NCBI GenBank assembly: GCA_038501625.1
Contig: JAZAYU010000116.1
Coordinates: forward strand, 1,921,914-1,985,913
From: Corbicula japonica
Lineage: Eukaryota > Mollusca > Bivalvia > Venerida > Cyrenidae
Length of the DNA: 64,000 nt
Direction: 5' to 3'
The number at the start of each line of letters is the position of its first letter. The first letter of the stretch is position 1. A program made the translations under genes and the position numbers. The notes beneath the pieces were generated by a model. The model was not told the DNA's origin, did not search any database, and saw nothing but the letters and a program-made list of their open reading frames with translations. Of this stretch, positions 3,700 through 64,000 are shown one piece after another.

Positions 3700-4383
3700 G
3701 ATTTCATGTCGTTAATTTGAACATTAATCACCTACTTTCTAAATTAGATCAACTAAAAATGTTGGTATATAGATCAAATAATATTGATTTAATAGGAGTA
3801 TGCGAAACCTTTCTAGATCATGAAGTTGATAACGAAATCATTTCTGTTCCGAATTTTATTATCGAGCGAAAAGATCGTGATTGTACAAATATTAGTAAAA
3901 CGTCCGGGGGTGGGATAGTTTTATACATAGCTGATCATCTACACTATACACGTAGGCTTGACTTAGAAACTGATGATGTTGAGAGCCTATGGGTAGAGGT
4001 AAGGATTAAAAGTATCAAGCCAATTCTTGTTTGCTCTGTATACCGACCACCGTGGGGTCCAGTTAGTTGGAGTGAATGTTTTGAAAGGCAGATTGAAACC
4101 GCGTCAATGTGTAATCTTGAAATGTATATACTTGGTGACTTTAATATAAATTGTTGCACTGACACCGACTCTATTACAAACCAAGCATGGGCACAGTGCA
4201 TAAGAAATCATGATTAATGTCAACTTATTAAAAACCACACTCGCGTAACTAAATCGTCAGCATCTATTATTGATCATTTATATGCCCGCAACTGTGATAT
4301 TAATTGTGTTGAATCTTTTGTAGCTCAAGTTGCGATTAGTGATCACTATCCAATTTGTTTTACAAGATGCGTACAAGGTAGTA
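3700..4383 (+). pseudogene. LINE endonuclease (EEP-type) domain with in-frame stop
   Basis: The translation shows the hallmarks of the endonuclease/exonuclease/phosphatase fold of LINEs: LNINHLLSK at the start, GVCETFLD with the catalytic Glu, GGGIVLYI, VYRPP, and GDFNIN with the Asp/Asn pair. Past a TAA at 4215-4217 the same frame continues with the terminal SDHYPI motif whose His is catalytic. The domain is therefore complete apart from one nonsense mutation. In a live element it nicks target DNA to prime reverse transcription. Confidence 0.85.
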
Positions 4384-4525
4384 ACAATACAAAACTAACA
4401 CATACTGAAATTACTTAATAAAATCGATCTTTTCGAAAGTTTTCTGAAACAGACTTTTTAAGTGATTTACAAAAGTCATTGTCAGATTTTTCAATATCCA
4501 GCAACCCTGATGATGAATTTCAAAG

Positions 4526-5200
4526 ATGGACTGCCACTTTTATGTATGTATTCAATTGTCATTCAATAGAATTATCCCAAGTAATGGTTCACTTGACAAA
4601 TTGGAAGAATTTGTGAATGCAAGAGTTCCAAATTTCATTTACTTTACTATTCCTTTTATTAAAGAAAATGACGTTTTGAATTTTTTACGAAAACTAGACA
4701 TAACAAAAGCAACTGGTCTAGATGGACTAAGTCCGAAATTACTTAAACTATCTGCGAATGTTATAGCTACAAGTATTACAAAGTTAATTCATAACTGTAT
4801 TATTAATACTGCATTTCCTAACTCCCTTAAACATGCCAAAGTTTTTCCGAGTATTAAAACCGGTGACAAATCCAATCCTACTTATTATAGACCAATATTG
4901 ATACCTCCCGTAACATCAAAAATATTTGAACGACACATAGTGAGACACCTTTTGTCTTTCCTTAATAAGTACAACTTAATTAACGAAGGACAATCGGGGT
5001 TTAGACAGTTACATTCATGTCAAACGGCCCTTGTTAAAATAATTGATAACTGTATAGGAAATATGAATGCTGGTGAATTAACCGGGGCAATATTTTACGA
5101 CCTCAGGAAAGCATTTGAATTAGTTGATTTCCAGCTGCTTTTAAATAAACTTAAGATTTACAAAATCTCTGACATTGCTGTCGATTTTTTCACGGTTTAG
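4526..5200 (+). pseudogene. LINE reverse transcriptase fragment (motifs 1 to A)
   Basis: The frame contains KATGLDGLSPKLLK, a YYRPI block, KIFERH, GQSGFR and FYDLRKAFELVD. These are reverse-transcriptase motifs 1, 2 and A in order, with the motif A Asp at 5099-5101. The frame ends at a stop soon after and runs straight into 3' untranslated sequence, so motifs B to E, including the catalytic FADD, are deleted. The first 25 or so codons do not fit the family and come from a frameshift or deletion joining the end of the endonuclease linker to the RT. Confidence 0.85.
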
Positions 5201-21119: not shown

Positions 21120-24090
21120 AAAGAAGCAGTGAGATGATTGGTGCCTTTGACTCAAAGTGTGACTGGTGCCACTGGCTCACAGTAAAATGACTGGTGCCAC
21201 TGGCTCCTACCATTGGCTCATAGTGAGATGACTGGTACCATTGGATCACAGTGAGATGACTGGTACCATTGGCTCACAGTGAGATGACTGGTGCCACTGG
21301 CTCACAGTGAGATGACTGGTGGCACTGGCTCACAGTGAGATGACTGGTGCGATTGGCTCACACTGAGATGACTGGTGCCATGATGTCACAGTGAGGTAAC
21401 TGGTGCCACTGGCTCACAGTGAGATGACTGCTGTCACTGGCTCACAGTGAGATGACTGGTGCCACTTGCTCACAGTGAGATGACTGGTGCCACTGGCTCA
21501 CAGTGAGATGACTGGTGCCATTGGCTCACAGTGAGATGACTGGTGCCATTGACTCACAGTGAGATGACTGGTGCCATTGGCTCACAGTGAAATGACTGGT
21601 GCCATTGGCTCACAGTAAAATGACTGGTGACACTGGCTCACAGTGAGATTACTGGTGTCTCTGGCTCACAGTGAGATGACTTGTGCCACTGGCTCACAGT
21701 TAGATGATTGGTGTCACTGGCTCAAAGTAAAATGACTGGTGCCATTGGCTCATAGTGAGATGACTGGTGCCATTGGCTCACAGTGAGATGACTGGTGCCA
21801 CTGGCTAACACTAAAATGACTGCTGCCACTGGCTCACAGTAAAATGACTGGTGCCATTGGCTCACAGTGAGATGACTGGTGCCATTGGCTCACAGTGAGA
21901 TGACTGGTGCCTTTGGGTCACAGTGAGATGACTGGTACCATTGGCTGACAGTAAAATGACTGGTGCCATTGGCTCACAGTGAGATGACTGGTTCCACTGG
22001 CTGACAGTAAAATGACTGGTGCCATTGGCTCACAGTGAGATGACTGTTTCCACTGGCTCACAGTAAAATGACTGGTGCCATTGGCTCACAGTGAGATGGC
22101 TGTTACCACTGGCTCACAGTGAGATGACTGGTGCCATTGGCTCACAGTAAAATGACTGGTGCCATTGGCTCACAGTGAGATGACTGGTGCCACAAGATCA
22201 CAGTGAGATGACTGGTGCCATTGGCTCACAGTGAGATGACTGGTGCCATTGGCTCACAGTGAGATGACTGGTGCCACTTGTTCACAGTGAGATGGCTGGT
22301 GTCCTTGGCTCAGTGAGACCACTGGTGCCTTTTGCTCAGTGAGACAACTGACATCATTGGGTGACAGTGAGACTAATGGTGCAGTTGGCTCACAGTGAGA
22401 CAACTGTTGCCATTGTGTCACAGTGAGACTTCTGGTGCCATTTGCTCACAGTAAGAATACTGGTGCAATTGGCTTAGTGAGACTACTTGTGCCATTGGCT
22501 CACAGTGAGACTACTGGTGCCATTGGTTCACGACTACTTGTGCCATTGGCTCACAATGAAACTACTTTTGCAATTGGATCACAGTGAGACTACTTGTGCC
22601 ATTGGCTCACAGTGAGAATACTTGTGCCGTTGGCTCACAGTGAGACTACTGGTGCCATTGGCTTAGACTACTGGTGCTCTTGGCTCACAGTGAGACTACT
22701 GGTGCCATTGGTTCACGACTACTTGTGCCATTGGCTCAAAATGAAACTACTTTTGCAATTGGCTCACAGTGAGACTACTTGTGCCATCGGCTCACAGTGA
22801 GAATACTGGTGCCATTGGCTTAGACTACTGGTGCTGTTGGCTCACAGTGAGACTACTGGTGCCATTTGCTCACTGTGAGACTACTGGTGCCATTGTCTTA
22901 GACTACTGGTGCCATTGGCACTCAGTTAGACTACTGGTGCGATTGGCTTAGTGATAAAACTGGTGCCATTGACTTAGTGAGACTACTGGTGCAATTGGCT
23001 TAGTGAGACTACTGGTGCTATTGGCTCACAGTGAGACTTCTGGTGCCATTGGTTCACGACTACTTGTGCCATTGGCTCACAATGAAACTACTTTTGCCAT
23101 TGGCTCACAGTGCGAATACTGATGCCATTGGCTCACAGTGAGACTACTGGTGCCATTGGCTCACAGTGAGACTACTGGTGCCATTTGCTCATAGTGAGAC
23201 TACTGGTGCCATCGGCTCACAGTGAGACTACTTGTGCCATCAGCTCACAGTGAGATTACTTGTACCATTGGCTTAGTAAAACTACTGGTGCCATTGGCTC
23301 ACAGTGAGAATACTGGTGCCATAAGCTCACAGTGAGACTACTGGCGCCATTGGCTCACAGTGAGCCATTGGCTCACAGTGAAACTACTGGTGCTATCGGC
23401 TCACAGTGAGACTACTGGTGCCATTGGCTCACAGTGAGATTACTGGTACCATTGGCTTAGTGACACTACTGGTGCCATTGGCTCACAGCGAGATTTCTGG
23501 TGCTCTTGGCTCACAGTGAGACTTCTTGTGCATTTGGCTCAGCGAGACTACTTTTGCCATTGGCTCACAGTGAGATTTCTGGTGCTGTTGGCTCACAGTT
23601 TGATTTCTGGTTGAATAGCTCACGGTGAAACTACTGGTGCACTTGCACCAGTGAGACTACTGGTGCAATTGGCTCACAGTGAGACAACTGGTGCCATTGG
23701 CTTAGAGAGACAACTGGTGCCATTGGCTCACAGCAAGATTTCTGGTGCTGTTGGCTCACAGTGAGATTACTGGTGTCATTAGCTCATAGTGAGACTACTG
23801 GTGCCATTGGCTCAGAGAGACTACCGATGCCATTGGCTCACAGTGAGACTACTGGTGCTATTAGCTCACAGTGAGACTACTGGTGCCATTAGCTCACAGT
23901 GAGACTACTGATGCCATTGGCTCACAGTGAGAATACTGGTGCCATTGGCTCACAGTGAGACTACTGGTGCCATTGGCTCTCAGTGAGGCTACTGGTGCCA
24001 TTAGCTTATAGTAAGACTACTGGTGCCAATGGCTCACAGTGAGACTACTGGTGCCATAGGCTTAGTGAGACTATTGAACAATTTGGTGTG
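21120..24090. repeat. 28-bp minisatellite, about 100 copies, two subfamilies
   Basis: The unit is GCTCACAGTGAGATGACTGG plus TGCCATTG. From about 21120 to 22300 units carry GAGATGACTGG or AAAATGACTGG. From about 22300 to 24090 they carry GAGACTACTGG, with frequent truncated units (GCTTAGTGAGAC, GGTTCACGACTAC) and higher-order repeats of a few units. The sharp switch suggests two independent expansions. No protein-coding constraint is evident. Confidence 0.95.
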
Positions 24091-25206: not shown

Positions 25207-26225
25207 AATACGGTGTTCCGTTGAGGCCATCGTTGTTTCGCCCTGTCGACTTCAAGAGCGAGAACACGAAAACGCGAAAACACGATGCGAGATCGCGAAA
25301 CAACGATGCGAGGTCGCAAAACAACGATGCGAGATCGCGAAAACACGATGCGAGGTCGCGAAAGTACGATGCGAGAACGCGATATTAATATCGCGTTCGC
25401 GCATCGTACTTTCGCGACCTCGCATCGTGTTTTCGCGTTCTCGCATCGTTGATTCGCGTTTTCGTGGTCTCGCTGTCCTTAGGGCGAGATCATGAAAACG
25501 CGAAATCACGATGCGAGAACGCGAAACAACGATGCGAGGTCGCGAAAGTACGATGCGAGGGAGCGAAAGCACGATGCGAGAACGCGATATTAATATCGCT
25601 CCCTCGCATCGTACTTTCGCGACCTCGCATCGTTGTTTCGCGTTCTCGCATCGTGATTTCGCGTTTTCGTGATCACGCCCTAAGGACAGCGAGACCACGA
25701 AAACGCGTAACAACGATGCGAGAACGCGAAAACACGATGCGAGGTCGCGAAAGTACGATGCGAAAACGCGATATTAATATCGCGCCCTCGCAATTTCGCG
25801 TTCTCGCATCGTACTTTCGCGATCTCGCATCATGTTTTCGCGTTTCGTAGTCTCGCTGTCCTGAGGGCGAGACCACGAAAACGCGAAAACACGATGCGAG
25901 AACGCGAAACAACGATGCGAGGTCGCGAAAGTACGATGCGAGGGCGCGATATTAATATCGCGTTCTCGCATCGTACTTTCGTGATCTCGCAGAAAACACG
26001 ATGCGAAAACGCGAAACAACGATGCGAGGTTGCGAAAGTACGATGCGAGAGCGCGATATTAATATCGCGTTCTCGCATCGTACTCTCGCGACCTCGCATC
26101 GTGTTTTCGCGATATCGCATCGTTGTTTCGCGATCTCGCATCGTGTTTTCGCGTTTTCGTGTTCTCGCCCAAGAGATCGAAAGTGCGAAACAACGATGGC
26201 CCCAACGGAATTCCGTAGTGCTAAT
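25207..26225. mobile_element. CpG-rich foldback element of nested palindromes
   Basis: The outer ends are inverted: TCCGTTGAGGCCATCGTTGT at the left, and its near reverse complement at 26187-26215. Inside, a 21-bp unit built on ACGATGCGAG-TCGCGAAA is tandemly repeated and flips strand repeatedly around five GCGATATTAATATCGC centres at about 25386, 25591, 25776, 25954 and 26061. Inverted GTCTCGCTGTCC/GGACAGCGAGAC linkers at about 25480, 25680 and 25860 separate the blocks. Every frame on both strands is open because the unit is 21 bp and lacks stops. That is a by-product and not evidence of genes. CpG density is far above the surroundings. Confidence 0.9.
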
Positions 26226-28393: not shown

Positions 28394-31077
28394 ATATCCC
28401 CCGCCGAGTACTGGTTATTACTAACACAACAGCTTAAGACATAGGGCTTTATTTAGATATTTATCATGGATGGCAAAAACAGTGAAAAAAACTTGATGGT
28501 GAAAAGGGTTGGGCAGCTCACCAGAATATAAAAATGAGATGAAAAGTCTTCAAGTTGTTGAAATGAAGAACGCAGTAGTAAAAATATAGCGCAGTATTTA
28601 ATGGAACTCCATGCAGAAGTTGCATAGAAGTAGCACGGAAACGAATACTACTCTATTTGCATAGTGCATAACTTATCAAGGGCCATAACTCTGTGTTTAA
28701 TGGTCACACCAGAACAAGATAACAATATGTGCATCTTGTCTTTGTATTGATGGTTTCCATAGTTTCCTACTAAGTTTTCCATACTAAGATGCAAGCTGAA
28801 ATGTATAAACTTTAGGCTAGTCATAAAAATCTTTTAATGAGTCACTATTATTTATTATCTTATTTATTATATCAAAACGTGACTGGGTGGCAGATACTCG
28901 ATGCACTCCGTCACCCTCTGTTGTCAGGTGGTACGTCTGACCCCCTGGACAGGGGTGACTTAAATGGAGTAGTGATACTTTCAGGCGGATGTTTTGACCT
29001 CCTGGGTAGAACTGGTATTCAAACACCGGCACGAGTGAAGCCAACCTCCTCATGTGGGATAAATTTTTAAATAAATCTTAGTAAAACTTTTGTGATAAAT
29101 GAAACTTTTATTAACTATTAAGACATGCCATATTTTAGAAATCCTATATATATAATCTTAACTATTTAATGTTCATTAGCTTTTAACTGTCAGAATTTAA
29201 CTTAAAATGTTTTGTTTTTCTTATACTATGACACTGTTTAACATTTAACTATGCTTTTATTACAGCCTCTTTACACTTGTTTTTACCCTGTTTACATTTG
29301 TTATTATAGTCGGTTAAAAAGCTCCTGAGAGCTTATGTTATTCTATTGTACTCGTCTTGCCGACTCAAAATAAATCTTATTGTATTGTATTGTATTGTTC
29401 CTGCTGAAATTAGCAAGAAACAAATACTGCTCTACATGCAAAATACTTAACTTATCAAAGGGCCATAACTCTGTGTTAAAGTGTCTGACTGAAACAAGAT
29501 GACAATATGCGCATCTCCTGTTTGTATTAAAAGTTTCAAGAAACATTCATTAAAATCCATCTAGTAGTTGCAGAGAAATAGCGAAGAAACAAATACTGCT
29601 GTATATGCATAATGAATAAGTTATCAAAGGGCCATAACTCTGTGTTAAACAGTCTGACAGGAACAAGACGACAATATTCATATCTCCTCTTGATGGTTTC
29701 AAGAAAGTTTCATTGAATTCCATTCAGTAGTTGCAGAAAAATAGCCCGGAAACAAAAAACTGCTCTATGTTCATAATGCATAAGTTATCAAAGGGCCATA
29801 ACTCTGTGTTTAACAGTCTGACCGGAACAAGATGACAATATGCGCGTCTCCTCTTGGTATTGATGGCTCTCAGAAAGTTTCATTAAAATCCATCCAGTAG
29901 TTGCAGAGAAATAGTGTGGAAACAAATACTGCTCTATATGCATAATGCATAAGTTATTAAAGGGCAATAACTCTGTGTTAAACAGTCTGACCGGAAGAAG
30001 ATGATAAAATGCGCATCTCCTCTCGGTATTGATGTTTCCCAGAAAGTTTCATTTAAATCCATAAAGAAGTTGCAAAGAAATAAAGCGGAAACAAATACTT
30101 CTCTACATGCATCATGCATAAGTTATCAAAGGGCAACAACTCTGTGTTAAACAGTCTGACTAAAACAAGACAACAATATGCACATCTCTTCTTGATATGG
30201 ATGGTTCTCAGAAAGATTAATTGAAATCCATCAGGTAGTTGCAGACAAATAGCGGAAACGAATACTGCTCTATATGCATAATGCAAAGTTATCAAAGGGC
30301 CATAACTCTGTGTTTAATAGTCTGACGGAACAAGATGATGATGTGCGCATTTACTCTTGGTATAGATGGTTTCTAGAAACATTCATTGAAATCCATTCAG
30401 AAGTTGCAGAGAAATAGCGTGGAAATGAATACTGCTCTATATGCATAATGCATAAGTTATCAAAAGGCAATAACTCTGTCACAGTGTTAAACAGTCTGAC
30501 TGGAACAAGACGACAATATGCGCATCTCCTCTTGGTATTGATGGTTCTCAGAAAGATTTATTGAAACCCATCTGCTAGTTACAGAGAAATAGCGCGGAAA
30601 CGAATACTGCTCTATATGCATAATGCATAAGTTATCAAAGGGCAATAACTCTGTGTTTAATGGTCTGACCAAAACAAGACGATGATATGTGCATTTCCTC
30701 TTGGTATAGATGGTTTCCAGCAAGTTTCATTGAAATCTATTCAGTAGTTGCAGAGAAATAGCGCGGAAATGAATACTGCTCTATATACATAATGTTAAGG
30801 TTATCAAAGGGCCATAACTCTGTGTTAAATGGTCTGACTGGAACAAGACAACGATATGCGCATCTCTTCTTGGTACTGATGGTTCCCACAAAGTTTCGCT
30901 GAAATCCATCCAGTGGTTGCAGAGAAATAGCGCGGAAACGAAATTCGGACGGACAGTGTGACGACGTGACAGCGTGACGACGTGACAGCGCGACGACGTG
31001 ACAGCGTGACGATGTGACGGACGGACAACGCCAAAACAATATCCCCCTCCCGATTTCATCGGCGGGGGATAAAATCA
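28394..31077. mobile_element. 2.7-kb TIR element of 168-bp units with 9-bp flanking repeat
   Basis: Inverted ends TATCCCCCGCCGA (about 28395) and TCGGCGGGGGATA (ending about 31071) enclose about ten 168-bp tandem units. Each unit contains AAGGGCCATAACTCTGTGTT, GAACAAGATGACAATATGCG and AGTTGCAGAGAAATAGCG. The last unit runs into GGACGGACAGTGTGACGACG repeats and CCCCCTCCCGATTTCATCGG. The direct repeat GTTGAATTT flanks the whole block at 28385-28393 and 31078-31086 and may be a target-site duplication, of a length seen with Mutator-like elements. No transposase is encoded. An unrelated insertion lies at about 28800-29395. Confidence 0.78.
28805..29395 (+). mobile_element. Insertion inside the 168-bp array, TATTG-tailed
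   Basis: The 168-bp unit that begins at 28679 is interrupted here and the array resumes at about 29396. The insert ends with CTCAAAATAAATCTTATTG and a short TATTG repeat, like the 3' end of a LINE or SINE in plus orientation. Its inner part has no recognisable ORF. Confidence 0.6.
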
Positions 31078-41400: not shown

Positions 41401-44400
41401 TTACAAGTTTGTACACGTGCCAACTTTCACAAGGCTGTGCACGGTGTTGATACCCTATGTGTGCTGTTTATTATTAACCCTTTCCTCCATAGATACACCT
41501 TTATTGCATGGGCGAACAGTTTAGATTCAGATCAGCCGGCACATCCGTGCCATCTGATCAGGATCTAAACTGTTCGCTCTTTGATTTGTTTGGTTATTTC
41601 TGACCAAAATGCGACAAGTGCAGATCCTGTTCAGACAGCATGGATGTGACGGCTGATCTGGATCTACACTGGTCGCACAGGAGAAAAAATGCGTATATAT
41701 CCAGGTAGGGGTTAAAATGGATATACATAATGAATATTTCTGACAGGAATATTTCAATTTCTAATAGTTACAATAAATTACTTGGTTAAATATATGATCT
41801 CTTTTTTATATTTCTCCCTAACCTGATAAGTGTCTTAACTTGAAAACTGGTTAACAAGCAAACCATTAGTTGTGTTGATTTTAAGTGTTCTCTCAGGCAG
41901 TATATTTTTTCAAGCAGGGTAAAGAGAGGTATGATAACTTTAACTTGAATAAAAGTACTTGGTTGAAGGTTATAAATCTGAGATTGGAAACCAGTCTCAA
42001 ATCTCAAGCATCTGATTGGCTGAAATGGCGACCAGTCACCATTTCAGCCAATCAGATGCTTGAGATTTAAGACTGGTTTCTAATCTCAGTTTTATAACCT
42101 TGGTTACTGTAATTGTCGTCTTTAAACTCTTTACTCTATAGATAAAACGTTATTGCATGGGGCTTTAATGTAATCCTGATGAGCTAGCAACCATGCCATC
42201 TGTGAAGGATCTTTATTGTTCGCTTTTAGATTAATGTGATTATTTTTAACCTCAAAGCGACCAGTGCAGATCATGATCAGATGGTTCAGAAATGCTTATC
42301 TAGAACTGGTCACACAAGGGAAAGAAACAATAATGTATTATTGATTTAAGTGTTAAACATGTTTTGGTAATATTTCATAACATATATCATAATTTTTTTC
42401 AGAATGTTCCAGTCACCAGACCATAATAACAACCTGTCCATGAGGCCGTCTGCAGTCCTTCATGACATAGGAGTGACAGAAAACATAGTAAAGAAGACAA
42501 GGAGGGCGTGGATGATACAGGAGGCATTAGAAAATATACTAACATATAATTTCTTAATGGACGGAGAAATAAGATGCTGTTGCTTTGGTAGTCAGTCTGA
42601 AGCATCAACTACAATACACTTACAATCTGACACTGATACTCTATATTCTTATACAAATGTATATGTGATACAGGACTGGTTTGAGTGGCAGCCAAACAGG
42701 GAGTGGCAGTATCTGATGATACAAGATGAGACAACATCACCAGGCTATTGCCTGCTACAGTTGCTGAGAAATGATGCTCCTCTTCCTGCTGTGAATATCC
42801 CAAATAAAAACTTTATCACAGACAGAGTTGGCAGAGTGCTTCTAACAAATAAAGTAAGTTTATTCAACTTTCCCAAAGAAATGCAAGAAGAAATAAGTAG
42901 AAATGGTCCTGCTGTAACACGTGTTGTACCTGGTTGCTTTGAAAGGGACAATGTGTATGCTTTACACTGTCGGTCCTGGCCAAGAGAAGCTGGTCCATGG
43001 TTACATCTGCAAAATGTGAGTGGCTGGCCAACTGAAGATATGAAAAGCTATTCAGCACAACAAGGTTGTTTTGTTGTCCCTGTTGGCAGCAAAACATGCA
43101 ACAATGTGGATCTGGAGTGGAGAATATCCACATCCTTAGCTGAAAGATGTCTGATGTACAACATCAACATCACACAGATAAGATGCTACATGCTGATGAA
43201 AATGATTATTAAAACATTTCTGCAGCCTAAATGTGGAAAGGCCATAACCAGTTTTATGTGCAAGAATATTTTATTTTACTGTATAGCAGGTTCAACATCC
43301 AGATGTACATGGCATGAAGGTAGTTTACTGACATGGTTAAATAAGTGTTTGCAAACTTTATTCAACTGTATACTGACTGAAAACTGTCCTCATTTTGTGA
43401 CACCCAGAAATAATCTTCTTGCTGGTAAATTATCTCCAGAAGTGAAAACTCATCTTGTAGAGGTCATGTGTACATTGACTGGTAACATAGAGCACACTCT
43501 GTTGGGTATCCAGATCAATAATCTTGGTAACCGTCTACATGCAAAGTCAGGCTATATACTAATAGAAGATGATTTATCTACTGTCTATCAAATTTTCTGT
43601 AACATCCATATCACAGCTCGGGCATTGTTGAATATTTTAAATATCATTTACACAAAGAAATTTCAAAATGTTGGTGCAAATGATCAAAACCCTTTAAAGA
43701 TTGTCTCTAAGTTGTGTCAGTTATATGCAGTGGGCAGCGATACTGAGAAGGTTGCTATCAGTCTTCTTACACCATTGTTCTGTACCAGCATAGGATCCAT
43801 TAGAGCATCAGCAGATATCCATCATACCCGGGCTATATCTTCCGAAGCCTTCAGGTGGTTCTCTCTTGGTTCGAACTCAGATTTCTCCTCCGGTAGACTG
43901 AAATACGCATCAGCACTGTACTGTGCTGGAGATCTAGTAAGATGTGAAACGATCCTGACTGCTGTGAGAGGACAATTATCACAAACAAATGTTCTGACTG
44001 TATGTTTTTGCAACATGCATACACCCACATTGCATGAAGACGCTGTAAGAGACTTAGCAAAACTCTACTATGAGAATAATGAAGATGTGATAAAACACAA
44101 CCTGGCTTTCTGTGTCCAGTTTTTGCTTAGTGAGTTCAACTGTATACCTCGACAGCTGGTGTATGAACTGTTCCGCAGAGGATCGGCCACACAGAACAGT
44201 ATATGAAAACTTCTGGATGGACCGTGCAGTGGTAGACTCCCTACCATATCTTTTCTTCCTGCAGTACAAGGTGTACAGCCAGCTCCAAAGACTAGCAGAT
44301 AAACAAAGAGCTCTCTACGACCTTGATACAACAATCCATAACGACAAAAACCTTGGTCACCGCGAGACGGCGCTTAATCTACTGGGACAATGCATGGTGC

Positions 44401-53400: not shown

Positions 53401-56400
53401 TAAATTTTGCGATTGTAAGCAGCAAACTGGATATCAGTTTGAAAGAAAAATCCAGGAATTTGCAGCACAGGACTTTTCGTATTTCGCAAAACAGGTATTA
53501 ATTTTAAGATTTGTTAAAAAAAATCGCATCTTTTAGACATATCTATACTATTGAGCTGTAGAAATCTATATAAAAAAGTCACAATCTTCTGGAATATCAT
53601 GAACAGCAAAATTCTCATTGTTTATGTGCAAAAAATCTTTTGTTCAGTTGTTTTTTTCAACACATTTCCATTTTGTATTTTGCCTTTTTTGGTCACCTCA
53701 GTCTGAGGAAAATGAAATTATTGATCGTTATTAAAAATGTCAAAATGCATATTTTTGATTGTCAGTGACCAGGAAAAGAAGAATTAATTACACGTATTTC
53801 AGACTTCCTGCAAGTTGAAAAAAGTGTCAGACATTTTGGGCGAATCGTTATGGGGCGAATCGCCTAATATTGGAAAATGTAAACAAAATGCTTATGCACT
53901 GCAGAACCGAGAGTGAGAAACAATGGGTCGACGTTTCGCTATTATTTGACAAACAGGTGTACAAATATAATATAATCTACCTCAAAGCATTCAAACAGAT
54001 CTGTCTGGAAGTCTAAATCGCTAAGTTTACTGGTAGTCCAGTCAATTTATATTTTGACCTCAAACTAATTGCAAAAGTTATGTTCACAGTAAAAAAATAT
54101 CAGTTATACTTTAAAATTACTATAGCAAAAAGTCTAAGAAAATCTAATAAGGGGAAATGAAAAAATAAGACATTTTATTTTACCGAAAATTGTAAAAAGA
54201 AACATTACCCGTTTGGCTTGCCATACCATACAAAGCGTTTGACTTACGCGGATCGATCCGTCTGTTGTTTAGATAGTAAACATGGCAAAAATGACAAATA
54301 ATCGGCATAATCTCAATAAATAAGGTAAGTTAGTGCCTTCTTACGATTATTTTTATAAAGAATTTAGTAAGAAATGCTTCCAGTTTGTTTTATAAAAGCT
54401 TTTTTGTATCTGCTTAAATATTGTAATACATTTTCGCGAGGTAAATGAAAAGCCAAGAACGCTGCCAAATAAGTGGTTATTAATGAGAAAAATACATGTT
54501 TTTGGTCATTTCATATAAGGTTTGATCTTTTTGATGGCCCTCCTATCGCTAAAATGTTATAAAAAGTTATATAAAGAGATCAATAATCGGCCACGAGACG
54601 CCGACGATTTTTTGACTATGGAAGTCCGTTTTAGCAAAAATTACGTATCTTCTTTATACATCTTCGTTCTTATAAAAGGACTGAGATTTGTATAAAATAT
54701 CAAATAAAAACGTTGTTAAGGATTTCAGATGGTAATATATATTTGTCAGAGAGTTAAACCGAAGTCCATCCGTTTTGCATTTGTTCTAATTGTAAATCTG
54801 AATCTTGTTATGAATGTGTAGTTTACTCGAACCATATTGGAGTTATGTTCAAAAGACCTATTGTTTACTTTCTGACATTGTAACTTAAGAAAATAAAAGC
54901 TTATCTTATTGTATTTCTATGAAAAAAATCTGATAATTAAAATAAACGTGGGTTATCTTAAACTAAGATCCTAAAAAACTATCACTGAACTATTAAAATA
55001 TTAAAAAATTAATATTTAAACGTAATTTTATTTTCAGTACTTTCTAATTTCAGAATGGATTTACCAAGTGGGCTATGCAAAATTTGTAACCTTATCCTAG
55101 ATGACTCCAAAACAACAGTACGACTCACGCAAAAGGGATGTGATGGCATAAACACTGCAAGTGAAAAACGAAAAGATTGTATATTTACCGTACCTGGTCA
55201 GTTTGTTCATGCTGAATGTAGAAAGAAGTACTGTAACCCGAATGTAATTGCTCGTGATGCCAAAGAACAACAGGAAGCACCCGCAGTTTATTCAAGATCT
55301 ACGAGATCAAAAAATGAGACATTTATGTTTAAAGAAAACTGTTTGTTTTGTGGTCAGTTTGCCAAGTGTGACGGGAAAAAACGAAGCTATGATGTATATC
55401 CTGTAAGAACATTAGATTTTCAGAAAAGAATCTTAGACATTTGTTCTACTAGAGGAGATGCTTGGGCTCAAAAAGTGTCAGCTAGAATAGAATTTGCTGC
55501 TGATTTACCTGCAGTAGATGCTGTATACCACCAGACGTGCAATGTCAATTTCAGGACAAATAAAGATGTTCCTAAGTATTTCCAACCTGATCTCGAAAAA
55601 ACGCAGACACGTGGTAGACCAACAGACCAGGATGCATGCATAGCATTTATGAAAGTAATTGAATACTTAAAGGAAAATGACAATGAACAAATAACTATTT
55701 CAGATCTTGTGGACAAAATGAAGGAGATGTGTGGAGAAAGAGCTTATAGTTCATCATACACAAAACAAAAGTTAGTGGAACACTTTGGTGACTCAGTAAT
55801 AATAACAGAAATAAACGGCAAGCCTAATGTTGTCACTCTTAGGCAAACTGCATCCACCATTTTGCACGACTTTTACTGTCAACGTAAATCAGACAACCCA
55901 GAGAATGAGAAAGTAAAATTAATAAAAACTGCAGCAAAACTGATAAAGAATGACATCAAATCCGTCGATACAAATAAAACTGTATACCCCAATCCTCATG
56001 ACATTTCGTCTATTGAAGCCAATAAACAGTTCATACCAGATAGTTTGGTACAATTGTTGCGAGATTTGTTCAGTGAAAAAGATGCTGATACCAAAGTTTG
56101 CTCTATAGGCCAAGCAATAATGCAGGCCTCACGTCCAAGAATAATGATTGCTCCATTACAGCTGGGACTTGCAGTGCAATTACACCACCACTTCGCCTCA
56201 AAATACCTGATTGATATATTGAACAGCTTAGGATTTTGTGTTTCGTATTCTGAAGTCCAAATGTTTGAATCTAGTGCCGCTGTTTCAAACAAAACAGATA
56301 TTGAAAATTTTCAGAACGACATGTTCATCCAATATGTTGCAGACAATGTAGATCATAATCTTCGAACTCTTGATGGGCACAATACATTCCATGGTATGGG

Positions 56401-59400
56401 CATGATTGCATGTGTAACACCTGGGAACTTTGGCAATAAAGCTATTATACGGCAAGTTGTTTCTTCAGATGATCTTATCTCTGCTGGAAAAATAGATATT
56501 TCATATTATCGTCCACCAGAAGCAACACAATTGTCAATTAACCTTTTGGAGCTAAATAGCTTTAAAGTGTCAGACGACAGCATCAAAATTGCTTTCCTTG
56601 CGCAGGTGACTTGGCCGCTTAGAAAACCAGGCCCAGAATGGTCAGGCCTTATGCAGATGGTGAGGAAGGGGGACTACCCTGGAAAATCGTCTGTCGTGTT
56701 CCTACCAATGATTGATATGGACCCAAGTGATATGTCTTGCATTTACACAACTCTCAAATACATCAGTAGCCATGCTTACCAGTACAGACAAACAGCTATT
56801 GTAACATTTGACCAGCCATTGTATTGGAAAGCAGTGACTGTGATTTCAAGTGAAAATGACAGTAGTTCACTCAAAGGCATTGTTGTGCGAATGGGTGGTT
56901 TTCATTGCATGATGAGCTACCTTGGTTGTATTGGTCAGCTTATGTCAGGCTCGGGATTGAGTGACTTGTTAGAAACAGTTTATGCACAAAATGTTATCCC
57001 ACACATGATGAGTGGAAAAGCTGTGTCAAGAGCACTTAGAGGCCATTCACTTGCAACCAATGCTTTAAATGTTCTCTTGATACGCCAGTGTTCAGAGACC
57101 TCCCAACCTATTGATGCCAACAATAATGATGAAGTCATGGAAATGAAAGATGAATGTGACAATAATGCACTGAATGATTTAGTTGTTCTGTATGAAAAGC
57201 TATCTTCTGGTGAAATTTCTGTTGAGGATGTATACAAGAATGATCTTCTTGATGACTTCTTTAAATCATGGTTATATACAAAGCAGAATCTCTTACAATA
57301 TCCAACTGCAGCACTGTGGATCCAGTATCTAGAAATGATGGATATACTACGCAAGTTTATAACAGCAGAACGAACTGGGAACTGGGAGCTGAGTTTGCAA
57401 TCATTGAGTGAAATGTTGCCTTTTTTTGCAGCTGCAGGCCACAATATGTACCTAAAGTCTGTGTATTTTTATTTGCAATGCATGCAAAACCTCCATGAAA
57501 GTCACCCTGATGTATATCAAGCATTCATGAAAGGTTACCACGTAGTACGCAGAAGTGACAGATACTGGGCAGGATTATCAACAGACCTTGTGATTGAGCA
57601 AGTCTTGATGCGTTCAGTCAAAACTACAGGAGGAATGACTCGTGGAAAAGGACTTTCAGAAAGTCAGAGAGCTCAATGGTTATTGTCAATGCCTTCATGT
57701 GTTGAAGTTAACAATGCCATGCAGTTATTTTGTGAGAAGGAATTTCAGACCAGTTCACAGCATAAAGAACTAGGCAAATCCCGAAATGAAAGAGACCTCA
57801 AAGATACCAAGATTTTATTGTCCTTCTTAGAAGAACGGAATCCTTTTCGTGAAGATCCTCTTCTGTTCAACATCGAAACTGGAGTAACATCAGATTCCAC
57901 AGTAAATGCACATCAGGCAAAGATTGTAGGAAACAAGGTCGTGCAATCAATGATAGGACAAAACGTTTTTGAAATTAGTTTCAAAAAGAGTCAGAAGGCA
58001 GTAACTTTAGATGCAGCACAACAGCTCAAAGTTGACAATGATATTATTAAAGTTGACCCTCAGTTACTTTTTCAAAGAATGACAGCAGCAGCACAAAGGT
58101 TTATAGAAGATATGCCAAGTGTGTTTTCTTATGAATTGTGCAGTGTACCATCATCTTTATTTGATACAACAGGACTAATGAGAAAGTCTCAGAAATCACT
58201 CCTGGCAGATGCTATATGGGCACTTGGAGATTGCAGTGTTGTTGAACTACTTGAAACGGACACGTACATGTATGTCATTGATGGTGGTTCCCTTCTGCAT
58301 CATGTTCCATGGAAAGTAGGGATGTTGTTTTCAGAAATTTGTGATTCTTACTTCCACTACATCTCTTCTAAATACCCCAATGCACTGATTGTATTTGATG
58401 GATACCAGTCTGGCCCAACAACTAAGGACTCAGCACATGTGAGACGTAACCATGGTGTCACCAGTACAAAAGTTTACTTTACAAAGTCTACACCTCTTGC
58501 AACAAGAAAGGAGAAGTTTCTAGGAAATTCAGAAAACAAACAAAACTTTATTTTCATGCTAAGTGAAAACCTGGAAGAGAAAGGATATGGTGTCGTTCAT
58601 GCAAATAGTGATGCTGATGTTTTGATAGTGAAGTCTGCTATGGAATTAGCTGATACAAGAGATGTTGTAGTTATTGGTGAAGATACAGATATCCTTGTGC
58701 TTTTGTTGTATTACATAAACTCACATCACAAGCATGTAATATTCAAATCAGCCCATAAGCAGAAAACATCTAAATCAGTTCGTGTCTGGGATATAAACAA
58801 AACCAAGCATGTTCTTGGTCAGGCACAGTGTAAAATATTGCCAGTTGTTCATGCATTAACTGGGTGTGATACAACTTCACAGATGTTTGGAATAGGCAAG
58901 GGATCAGCACTGAAGAAATTTATGTCTGATGAGCAACTTGTTGCCCTTGCCAATGTTTTTCTGACACAGTCCAAAAAGGAAAATATAATCAATTGTGGGG
59001 AGCAAATTCTTGTTCTTCTATATGGTGGATTACCGTTGGAAGGTCTAGACTTGCTACGTTTCCGGAAATTTACTACGAAAGTAATGTCAAGTTCTATCTA
59101 CGTTCAGGTGCAGACATTACCCCCCACATCCGCAGCTGCCAAGTACCACAGTTTACGTGTGTATTACCAAGTTCAAGAATGGATAGAACAAGACACAAAA
59201 CTGCTACCTATTGAATGGGGGTGGAAACTGACAAACGATGTGCTGATGCCTCTGAAAACTGATCTTCAAGCTGCACCAGATAATCTGCTTAACATGGTCA
59301 GATGTAAATGTAAACAGAACTGTGACTCGAGAAGGTGTACTTGTAGAAAGAATGGACTAGAATGTTCCTCAGGATGTTCTGAATGTAGGGGTTTAAGTTG

Positions 59401-62400
59401 CACAAATGTTGCAAAGGTCACTGACTCAGACTCGGACAGTGAGTAACTCTTAATGACAAGATGAGTGGCAACTGAGTTTGGGTAAAATTCCATAATATCA
59501 TGCCATGTATTGATACAAGTCAACACTGTATATAAGCAGTATCGATAAATAATATTAATTAGTTAACTTTTTAAACCTAAGTATATTTATATTATATGAC
59601 TGTTTTGAACATAAATACAATTTATTTAATTTTTTCATAATATTACACAAAACATAATATTGGTGTTTTTCAATAAATGTGTGGTATTACCCCACCCACT
59701 TTTTCTCTTTTTTATTAAGAAAAACAAAAAAAAATATTGCTCTTAAATCATAACAATACACTTGTTTTAAATGCTTTATATTGTAAAACATAATTACAGT
59801 ACAGTGCATATTTTTAAATGAAATTATTGGTAGCTTTTATACCCACATATGTCAATTTCTTGGTAAGCCAACCCCTAAAAATATGTAAATAGTCATCCGA
59901 TTCATCCAAATTTTTCTACAATTTCCCCTATTTAGATTTTTCTAGACTTTTGATATTATATCTAAGATAGTATCTAGATTTAAAATTAGTGAGTTTCATT
60001 TCTTTTGCAATTAGTTGGAGGTTAAGGGTCATTTTGATATAGATTGACTGGACTATGGCGCGGACGCAAAGGTTGATGGTGTTTTGACAGCCTCGGTCTG
60101 ATTTGACAGTTGCGCGCGCGATGGTTCTCCGAATTACGTCATATGTATATTTTTATTTAAAAAAACCCAAACCTATGAAAATGATTGTATATTTTGTGTT
60201 ACAAATGCACTATGTTGACTATTCTTCTTATTAAAAATAAGAATAAAAATAAATTATTGAATAAAAATTTGGTACTCTTAAGCCTAGACGGTGAAGAGTG
60301 TATCCGTGAGATTTACACTCCCATGGGGGAAAATCGGAACGCTTCGGATCACAAATTTTTTAAAGCGATGGTAGTTGGGCATAACATTACGCACATTACC
60401 GTAAAAGCTCGCTTGCTCGCGAGCTCCCTTCGGGGGCTCGCTCGCTAGAGCTCGCATATTAGACACATGCATGATTATTACATGTATATAATATGAACTA
60501 TAGGTGCTACCTATTTAACGGGGAAAGCCAAAGAACTGCTAAGAGCGTTATGCAACCTAGATATGGCCCAAAATGTGCACCTCTGCGCAAAGAGGTTGAT
60601 TTGTAACATCCATAATGGTGACCAAAGTTGACCAGAGTAACCAGTCACTCCTGATGGATTTATAAAATACACATGATAAAATCATGAAACACTGAGGAAT
60701 ATGGGATGGTTACCAGAGGTGACCAAGAGTGACCAAAGAGTAATAGTAGGTCACAAATGAACATGTATGCGCTGAGGTGCACATTTTGGGCCATATATGG
60801 TGCAACCAGCTGAAACCCTGTGTCATCTGCGTACTTGTTGAAATATATATTAATTCTTATGGAGTTCAAAAAATCTTCATTTCTTCTGTATTTTGGTGAA
60901 AATACTTAACTAACATATCAGTGTAACATATACCAAGAAAAGACAAGAGTTCGGCATATCTAGGTCAAACTCAAAGCTATCAAATATGGACATGCATGTG
61001 AACAGTACTGTCCATAAACAGGCTCAATCAAACATATTTTCATATTTGTCAGGTTCGAAGGCTTTCAAAGTTCCCTTTACATCTATTTCAACATAACTCA
61101 TTCATCTTGGTGATAGAGATGCATCGATAACAAAGAGTTTGAGTAAAAGTTATTGATTAGCTTAATTTCTGTTATGTTAATAAACAGCAGCTTAGATAAT
61201 CTATCAAATTATTTTGAAATTTCAATAGATCTGTTTTCGTAAAATGATAACTCTTATTACTTCACAGCAAAAATTAAGTAAATAATATTAGTTTAAGGTA
61301 AACATGATGATTGAATTGTTTTGCAATATATTCACAAATACAATCATGATGCTATGACAGACAGATTTATGATGATAGTTCTTTACATGGGGTTTTCATG
61401 GGATTTTGGCTCTCAACATTGTTTACATGTTTAATGCCGTTGAAATTTGGAGTTGATTTGATGCAGATTAGTCAAAATTGCATGTCAAAAACATCACTGC
61501 TTCAAAGTCTGTCAGTCAACACTGTTAATGTCTAACCATTTCCCTCCAAGATCCAATAAACTGGTGAGAAAAATGCTGGTTGAGCCATGAAACAAATTTT
61601 CTTTCTTTGGGCTACTTGCAAACTACTTTTTCTTGTGATTCAGTTGATATTCATATCCAAATTACAGTAATTACTTCTTAGAAGATCAGTAGGTGTGAAA
61701 TGTATGTGCATCAGTTTCAGATTCATCTCCAAATCACACTTATTTCTCTTAGGTGTGAAATGTATAACCCTAGGTGATAACAGCTACTGCGTAATAACCT
61801 GTCTTTGTCAATGTATTATTGCCATGTTTGTGAAAGACTGCTGCATGTTATTGAATTTAATTGACAATTATTTTGCCCTTTTTAAAAAATTAATAGATTG
61901 ATTACACTTAAAATAACTAAATATCTGTCAGTAATTTATTATTTTTAATTGATTGAAAATTAATTTTGTAATTAATTATAATTCATTAATTTTTTGTTGT
62001 TATGGGACACAGGTCTGTCCCTTACACAAAAGTTGTTTATTAAAAAATACAGGACAGGACTTCTAACAAATTGACAGACAGTTGTGTATTTATTTTGTGT
62101 ACTGTATCATATAATCAAAGTACTGAAAGTACAGAAAACCAGCGAAGCGATTTTGCTTATTGAGAATAACCAGTGCCATGATTTTCATACATGTATCCAT
62201 TTACGAAAAAGCAAAAAAAAACTTGGTTCACTCGCAAAGAACTTCCTCTTGTCTAAATGATAGTGGAAATAAGGGTTTCCATGTATTATCTGGATGAAGG
62301 CTTCTGTTAACCCTTTACTCCATAGATATACCTTCATAGCTTGTGCGAACAGTTTATATCCATATCAGCTGGCACATCTGTGCGATCTGATTAGGATTTA

Positions 62401-63521: not shown

Positions 63522-63589
63522 CTGCAACATAACATAAAAGTCTACATTAACAGATGTTAATTTTATAAAGATAAACAATAACCTGGTGT

Positions 63590-64000
63590 ATAATAATAAT
63601 AATGTGGTATGTGTTACTAATTGTGTAACAATGATACAGTGGTATGTATTACATGGTGTGTAACAATGACAATGTGGTATGTGTTACATGCTGTGTAACA
63701 ATGATAATGTGGTATGTATTACATGTTGTGTAACAATGATAATGTGGTATGTGTTACACGTTGTGTAACAATGATAATTGGTATGTGCTACATTTTGTGT
63801 AACAATGATAATGTGGTATGTGTTACATTTTGTGTAACAATGATAATGTGGTATGTGTTACATTTTGTGTAACAATGATAATATGGTATGTGTTACATGT
63901 TGTGTAACAATGATAATGTGGTATGTGTTACATTTTGTGTAACAATGATAATGTGGTATGTGTTACATTTTGTGTAACAATGATAATGTGGTGTGTGTTA
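63590..64000. repeat. 35-bp minisatellite, at least 11 copies, cut by window end
   Basis: The unit contains GTAACAATGATAATGTGGTA and TGTGTTACATTTTGT. Early copies are more variable (TAATAATAATAATG at 63590), later ones nearly identical. The array continues past base 64000. Confidence 0.93.

Follow-up and report, generated by a model that had tools for sequence, protein, structure and literature searches.

A probable AcademX DNA transposon of Corbicula japonica with a DDE transposase and a FEN1/XPG-type nuclease in one reading frame

Introduction

Transposons of the AcademX lineage, a branch of the Academ superfamily reportedly defined by Kojima in 2020, live in animal hosts, have inverted ends, and encode a nuclease of the XPG type. 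The transposases of the P element, Transib/RAG1, and hAT (Hermes) carry a helical insertion before the last catalytic glutamate, and to our knowledge none of them is fused to a FEN/XPG nuclease. As characterized in one portion of PMC10045372, AcademX elements have a nuclease and target-site duplications of 3 or 4 bp, whereas AcademH elements have a helicase and duplications of 9 or 10 bp. The sections of PMC10294476 on Academ report an amplification specific to bivalves, curated bivalve elements (n = 100 consensus sequences) with a mean length of 5565 bp, and profiles built on DDE domains. Here, we analyze a window of 64,000 nucleotides from the bivalve Corbicula japonica (assembly GCA_038501625.1, contig JAZAYU010000116.1, positions 1,921,914 to 1,985,913; coordinates below are those of the window). 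A sequence-only reading had picked out a long open frame in it, proposing a transposon-derived or domesticated genome-processing protein. That reading missed the setting: the frame lies within a 6022-bp transposon at positions 54034 to 60055. We regard this element with considerable confidence as a cut-and-paste DNA transposon of the autonomous type that most likely belongs to the AcademX lineage.

Ends, target duplications, and empty sites

Three colinear inverted pairs around the frame form one gapped terminal inverted repeat (TIR), the outer ends of which are the element ends (Table 1). Local alignment of the left end with the right end scored 115, compared to a mean of 25 and a maximum of 98 for 500 pairs of regions drawn at random from the window. 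Two occurrences of the outermost 19 bp (the right one with 1 mismatch) are present in the window, a result obtained in 0 of 100 shuffles. Alignments that included the window flanks ended at 54033-54034 and 60055-60056 (60061 in one row), and, over the extent of the flanks fetched, the other close copies ceased to match the window where the element ends.

The sequence-only reading had proposed a genome-wide search for further copies and their flanks, and such copies were found. The close family that we compared consists of 8 loci, window copy included; both ends are kept in 5 and one end only in 3. Each of the five two-ended loci has its own perfect 3-bp duplication, and all are different (TGG, TTT, GTA, CTT, and AAA); two positions taken at random from the window agree over 3 bp with a probability of 0.02. 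A second end-like site at one locus (L033), whose flank fails as a duplication and which has no element sequence in between, was excluded from this count. The left flank of the window copy (53534-54033) consists of a dispersed repeat, for which a search of the host assembly gave at least 46 match rows, window included (40 of 311 candidates scored). Repeat copies fetched for 4 of these 46 rows all cross the junction without the element and have the 3 bp only once (TGG in three, TGT in one), and therefore the element inserted with target duplication. Together with the duplications, these empty sites demonstrate transposition with a 3-bp stagger. TIRs at both ends, a duplication of fixed length with empty sites, and a DDE transposase with a predicted RNase H fold (see below) are the features of class II TIR transposons.

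A transposase core and a nuclease in one frame

The 1463-codon frame noted in the sequence-only reading is real, with 0 internal stops; the 6 other frames of at least 60 amino acids (aa) in the element, considered as candidates for a second protein, all overlap it, 5 of them antisense. At E ≤ 0.001, the frame's protein had 254 relatives, the best 120 of which were listed, giving 121 sequences with the query. We hand-picked 53 near full-length sequences (query included) from these 121 for an alignment, to which the residue counts below refer. Among the matches listed, named relatives came from Porites corals and from the molluscs Mercenaria, Mytilus, Patella, and Mya, and three rows carried the name "Tesmin/TSO1-like CXC domain-containing protein." The motifs named in the sequence-only reading are kept almost throughout the alignment, and 101 of the 121 sequences combine the CXC pattern with the transposase motifs and with three or all four of the nuclease motifs.

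The structural model of residues 337 to 889 adopts the RNase H fold of DDE transposases, with the P element and HzTransib as best matches, and a helical insertion preceding the last catalytic glutamate is visible in it. The best rows for the P element, Transib/RAG1, and hAT (Hermes) transposases match this fold along 292 to 367 residues; identity is 7 to 11%, and these proteins serve here as fold relatives only. Residues D430, D433, D440, D586, E848, and Q849 are each present in 53/53 sequences. Fold and conservation suggest that DDE chemistry takes place at D430, D586, and E848.

For residues 1046 to 1386, the model is that of the Exo1/FEN1/XPG fold, and six aspartates (D1076, D1115, D1186, D1188, D1210, and D1272) are each conserved in 53/53 sequences. 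D1212 is found in 52/53 (E in the remaining one), position 1209 is E in 30 sequences and D in 23, and the glycines of the GIG motif are kept in 50/53 (G1279) and 53/53 (G1281). As modeled, the domain combines the PIN-like fold, acidic set, and helix-two-turn-helix of the Rad2/XPG superfamily. It shares fold and acidic residues with Exo1/FEN1/XPG (Rad2 family) but differs from them in its low identity (∼14%) and in being part of a transposon protein. The nuclease domain of this family has D1186 and D1188, which we take to occupy the positions of FEN1 E158 and E160; K1124 and R1130/R1131 presumably correspond in position to the Lys/Arg of the arch in FEN1 and Exo1. Judging by fold and conservation, metal-dependent nuclease activity is likely at the six aspartates and D1212. 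Thus, the proposal that the frame joins an RNase H core of transposase type to a FEN1/XPG-type nuclease, for which the sequence-only reading had named structure prediction of both parts as a check, is borne out by the predicted folds and by conservation.

Cysteine-rich modules flank these domains. At the N terminus, C8, C11, H52, C55, C96, C99, C130, H159, and C162 are conserved in 50 to 53 of 53 sequences and probably bind zinc. At the C terminus, each of nine cysteines is kept in 51 or 52 of 53 sequences and their full spacing in 50/53. The call of a CXC module is based on this spacing and on the source-given names of relatives.

Table 1. Features of the element in the window
Feature	Position	Strand	Basis
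Complete DNA transposon, 6022 bp	54034..60055	+	homology limits, inverted repeats, empty sites
Target-site duplication TGG, left copy	54031..54033	.	
Target-site duplication TGG, right copy	60056..60058	.	
Left TIR, gapped, begins TAGTCCAGTCAAT	54034..54164	+	local alignment vs right end
Right TIR	59911..60055	-	inverted-repeat search, local alignment
Single uninterrupted frame, transposase + nuclease, 1463 aa	55055..59446	+	
Two N-terminal Cys/His modules, residues 8-162	55076..55540	+	conserved CxxC...HxxC pairs
DDE transposase core with helical insertion, residues 337-889	56063..57721	+	model, fold match, conservation
Candidate triad D430; D586; E848	56342-56344; 56810-56812; 57596-57598	+	
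FEN1/XPG/Exo1-type nuclease, residues 1046-1386	58190..59212	+	model, fold match, conservation
Nine-cysteine CXC-type module, residues 1417-1449	59303..59401	+	cysteine spacing

Copies in the host genome

A protein-level search of the host assembly (1.07 Gb in 1630 contigs; 32 of 502 candidates scored) gave at least 42 match rows, some of which are pieces of one copy. Within the close family, L032 is 99.8% identical to the window copy over 6022 bp (11 substitutions and 1 indel), and therefore the element moved recently. Of the 8, the window copy alone has both ends together with a frame that can be aligned without a break from start to stop. In L002, residues 3 to 1457 are covered by an open frame, but ∼450 extra bases fall in codon 3 (element position 1029) and there are two further indel columns, the copy being otherwise 99.6 to 99.7% identical. 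The frame contains one indel column in L031 and one in L032 and is partly missing in L034, and L035 and L036 keep a single end.

Divergent relatives (e.g., L010-L013, L016-L023, L025, and L027-L030) have ∼38 to 52% protein identity, and many are broken by stops; therefore, more than one lineage of this kind of element is present in the host genome. L010 (49% identical) has a perfect 22-bp inverted repeat, with no convincing target duplication in the flanks inspected. Among ten left-end matches, clear short nonautonomous copies were not established (L039 keeps 293 bp, L046 keeps 95 bp, L041 meets a contig end, and L045 is 88.6% identical). Two scans of viral contigs yielded 1 and 23 pattern-matching stretches, of which 0 were confirmed as relatives, although distant ones may exist.

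Class assignment and alternative explanations

The AcademX label is assigned because of architecture and duplication length, Academ having been compared by description only. The 3-bp duplication fits the 3 or 4 bp of AcademX and not the 9 or 10 bp of AcademH. An encoded nuclease with the FEN/XPG fold and no helicase likewise agrees with AcademX: a Pfam scan of 30 family members (E ≤ 0.1) matched 8 families, none of them a helicase. The transposase with encoded nuclease and 3-bp duplication resembles AcademX as that lineage is portrayed in part of PMC10045372, and DDE type, bivalve host, and similar length resemble the bivalve Academ elements, again by description only, in the relevant sections of PMC10294476. 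To this extent, the comparison with Academ made in the sequence-only reading is apt. The likeness is one of architecture and duplication length, and the sole Pfam family matched by many members, DUF6589 (15/30 at E ≤ 0.1; best, 1.3 × 10−6), is a family of unknown function; both points would suit a separate, unnamed superfamily that has the DDE and XPG layout of AcademX and is not of Academ descent. We consider such a superfamily unlikely, since the combination of nuclease and 3-bp duplication is the one stated for AcademX in the portion of PMC10045372 noted above, and a 6022-bp element (against the mean of 5565 bp) in a bivalve also fits Academ as outlined in PMC10294476.

Several searches gave little or nothing for the domains. 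No Pfam family scored above its own cutoff for the 1463-aa protein, and phmmer of the whole protein against PDB gave a sole weak match (E = 0.093). Foldseek alone found no match to the transposase core at E ≤ 0.001. For the CXC module, no CXC/TCR Pfam family appeared among the 30 members scanned (E ≤ 0.1), and a sequence search of solved structures in PDB returned 0 matches at E ≤ 10, so that the CXC domain of the sequence-only reading is a putative one, based on its nine-cysteine spacing and on the names of relatives. The weakness of single-sequence profile searches and the Foldseek result could be expected if the motifs were chance resemblances without folds, an explanation that we find scarcely credible given the models and conservation described above.

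The sequence-only reading's domesticated genome-processing protein, a host gene derived from a transposon and retained as a nuclease, did not hold up. An intact frame would suit it, as would the silent changes favored in three older copies relative to the window copy (L031, 27/49; L033, 20/37; L034, 23/46). However, selection for transposition accounts for this excess equally well, and the excess is missing in the closest copies (L002, 3/9; L032, 1/6; L035, 0/3) and also in L036 (22/59). Moreover, the frame lies inside a complete transposon whose intact inverted ends, 3-bp target duplication, uninterrupted target sites, and close copies at unrelated loci mark a mobile copy, making domestication highly improbable. 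The long frame is the element's own enzyme, in a well-formed representative of an already described type of element, and therefore the combination of transposase and nuclease is not a new fusion.

Proposed mechanism and implications

In the mechanism that we propose, the zinc and CXC modules would bind the inverted ends, and the RNase H-fold DDE center (D430/D586/E848) would cut and join the 3′ ends across the 3-bp stagger that the duplications record. The FEN1/XPG-type nuclease would most likely trim the remaining strand, whether during excision or, in the form of 5′ flaps, once strand transfer has taken place; 5′ flaps are the substrate class of FEN1. In a stricter version, which we offer tentatively and consider rather doubtful, the XPG domain would be a dedicated second-strand nuclease that takes off the 5′ strand, in the form of a flap, upon or following strand transfer and sets the 3-bp stagger, leaving the DDE center to handle the 3′ ends only. 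This arrangement would be a eukaryotic counterpart of the division of labor between TnsA and TnsB.

With a complete, recently moved DDE and XPG transposon copy with exact ends at hand, the role of a structure-specific nuclease in such a transposase becomes addressable by a simple plasmid test. In addition, a weak DUF6589 match in the 1463-aa protein (E = 0.075, under the cutoff; residues 755 to 899, positions 57317 to 57751) spans the last catalytic glutamate, suggesting that DUF6589 is a transposase core. Proteins with this family, and the three mollusc/coral rows named for a CXC domain, may be transposases and not host genes.

Other features of the window

A single-exon Mab-21-like frame lies at 42404-44206 (+) (PF20266; E = 7.4 × 10−10). 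At E ≤ 0.001, 301 relatives were retrieved for it, and the 120 listed belong mostly to large Mercenaria and Ruditapes clam families. The closest among the matches listed are Mercenaria and Ruditapes proteins (44% identity for the best-scoring one), and we assume that the frame may be of the cGAS-like receptor kind. A long interspersed nuclear element remnant at 3717-5200 (+) consists of an endonuclease-like frame, just under the Pfam cutoff, followed by a reverse transcriptase. Tandem repeats include a CG-rich unit of 21 bases (CGCGAAA...CGATGCGAG) densely arrayed in both orientations at 25273-26153 and a long minisatellite at 21210-24073 with a 28-base unit and higher-order periods of 56 and 84 bases. 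Further arrays occupy 3-1319 (50-base unit), 29417-30944 (169-base unit), and 63587-64000 (35-base unit).
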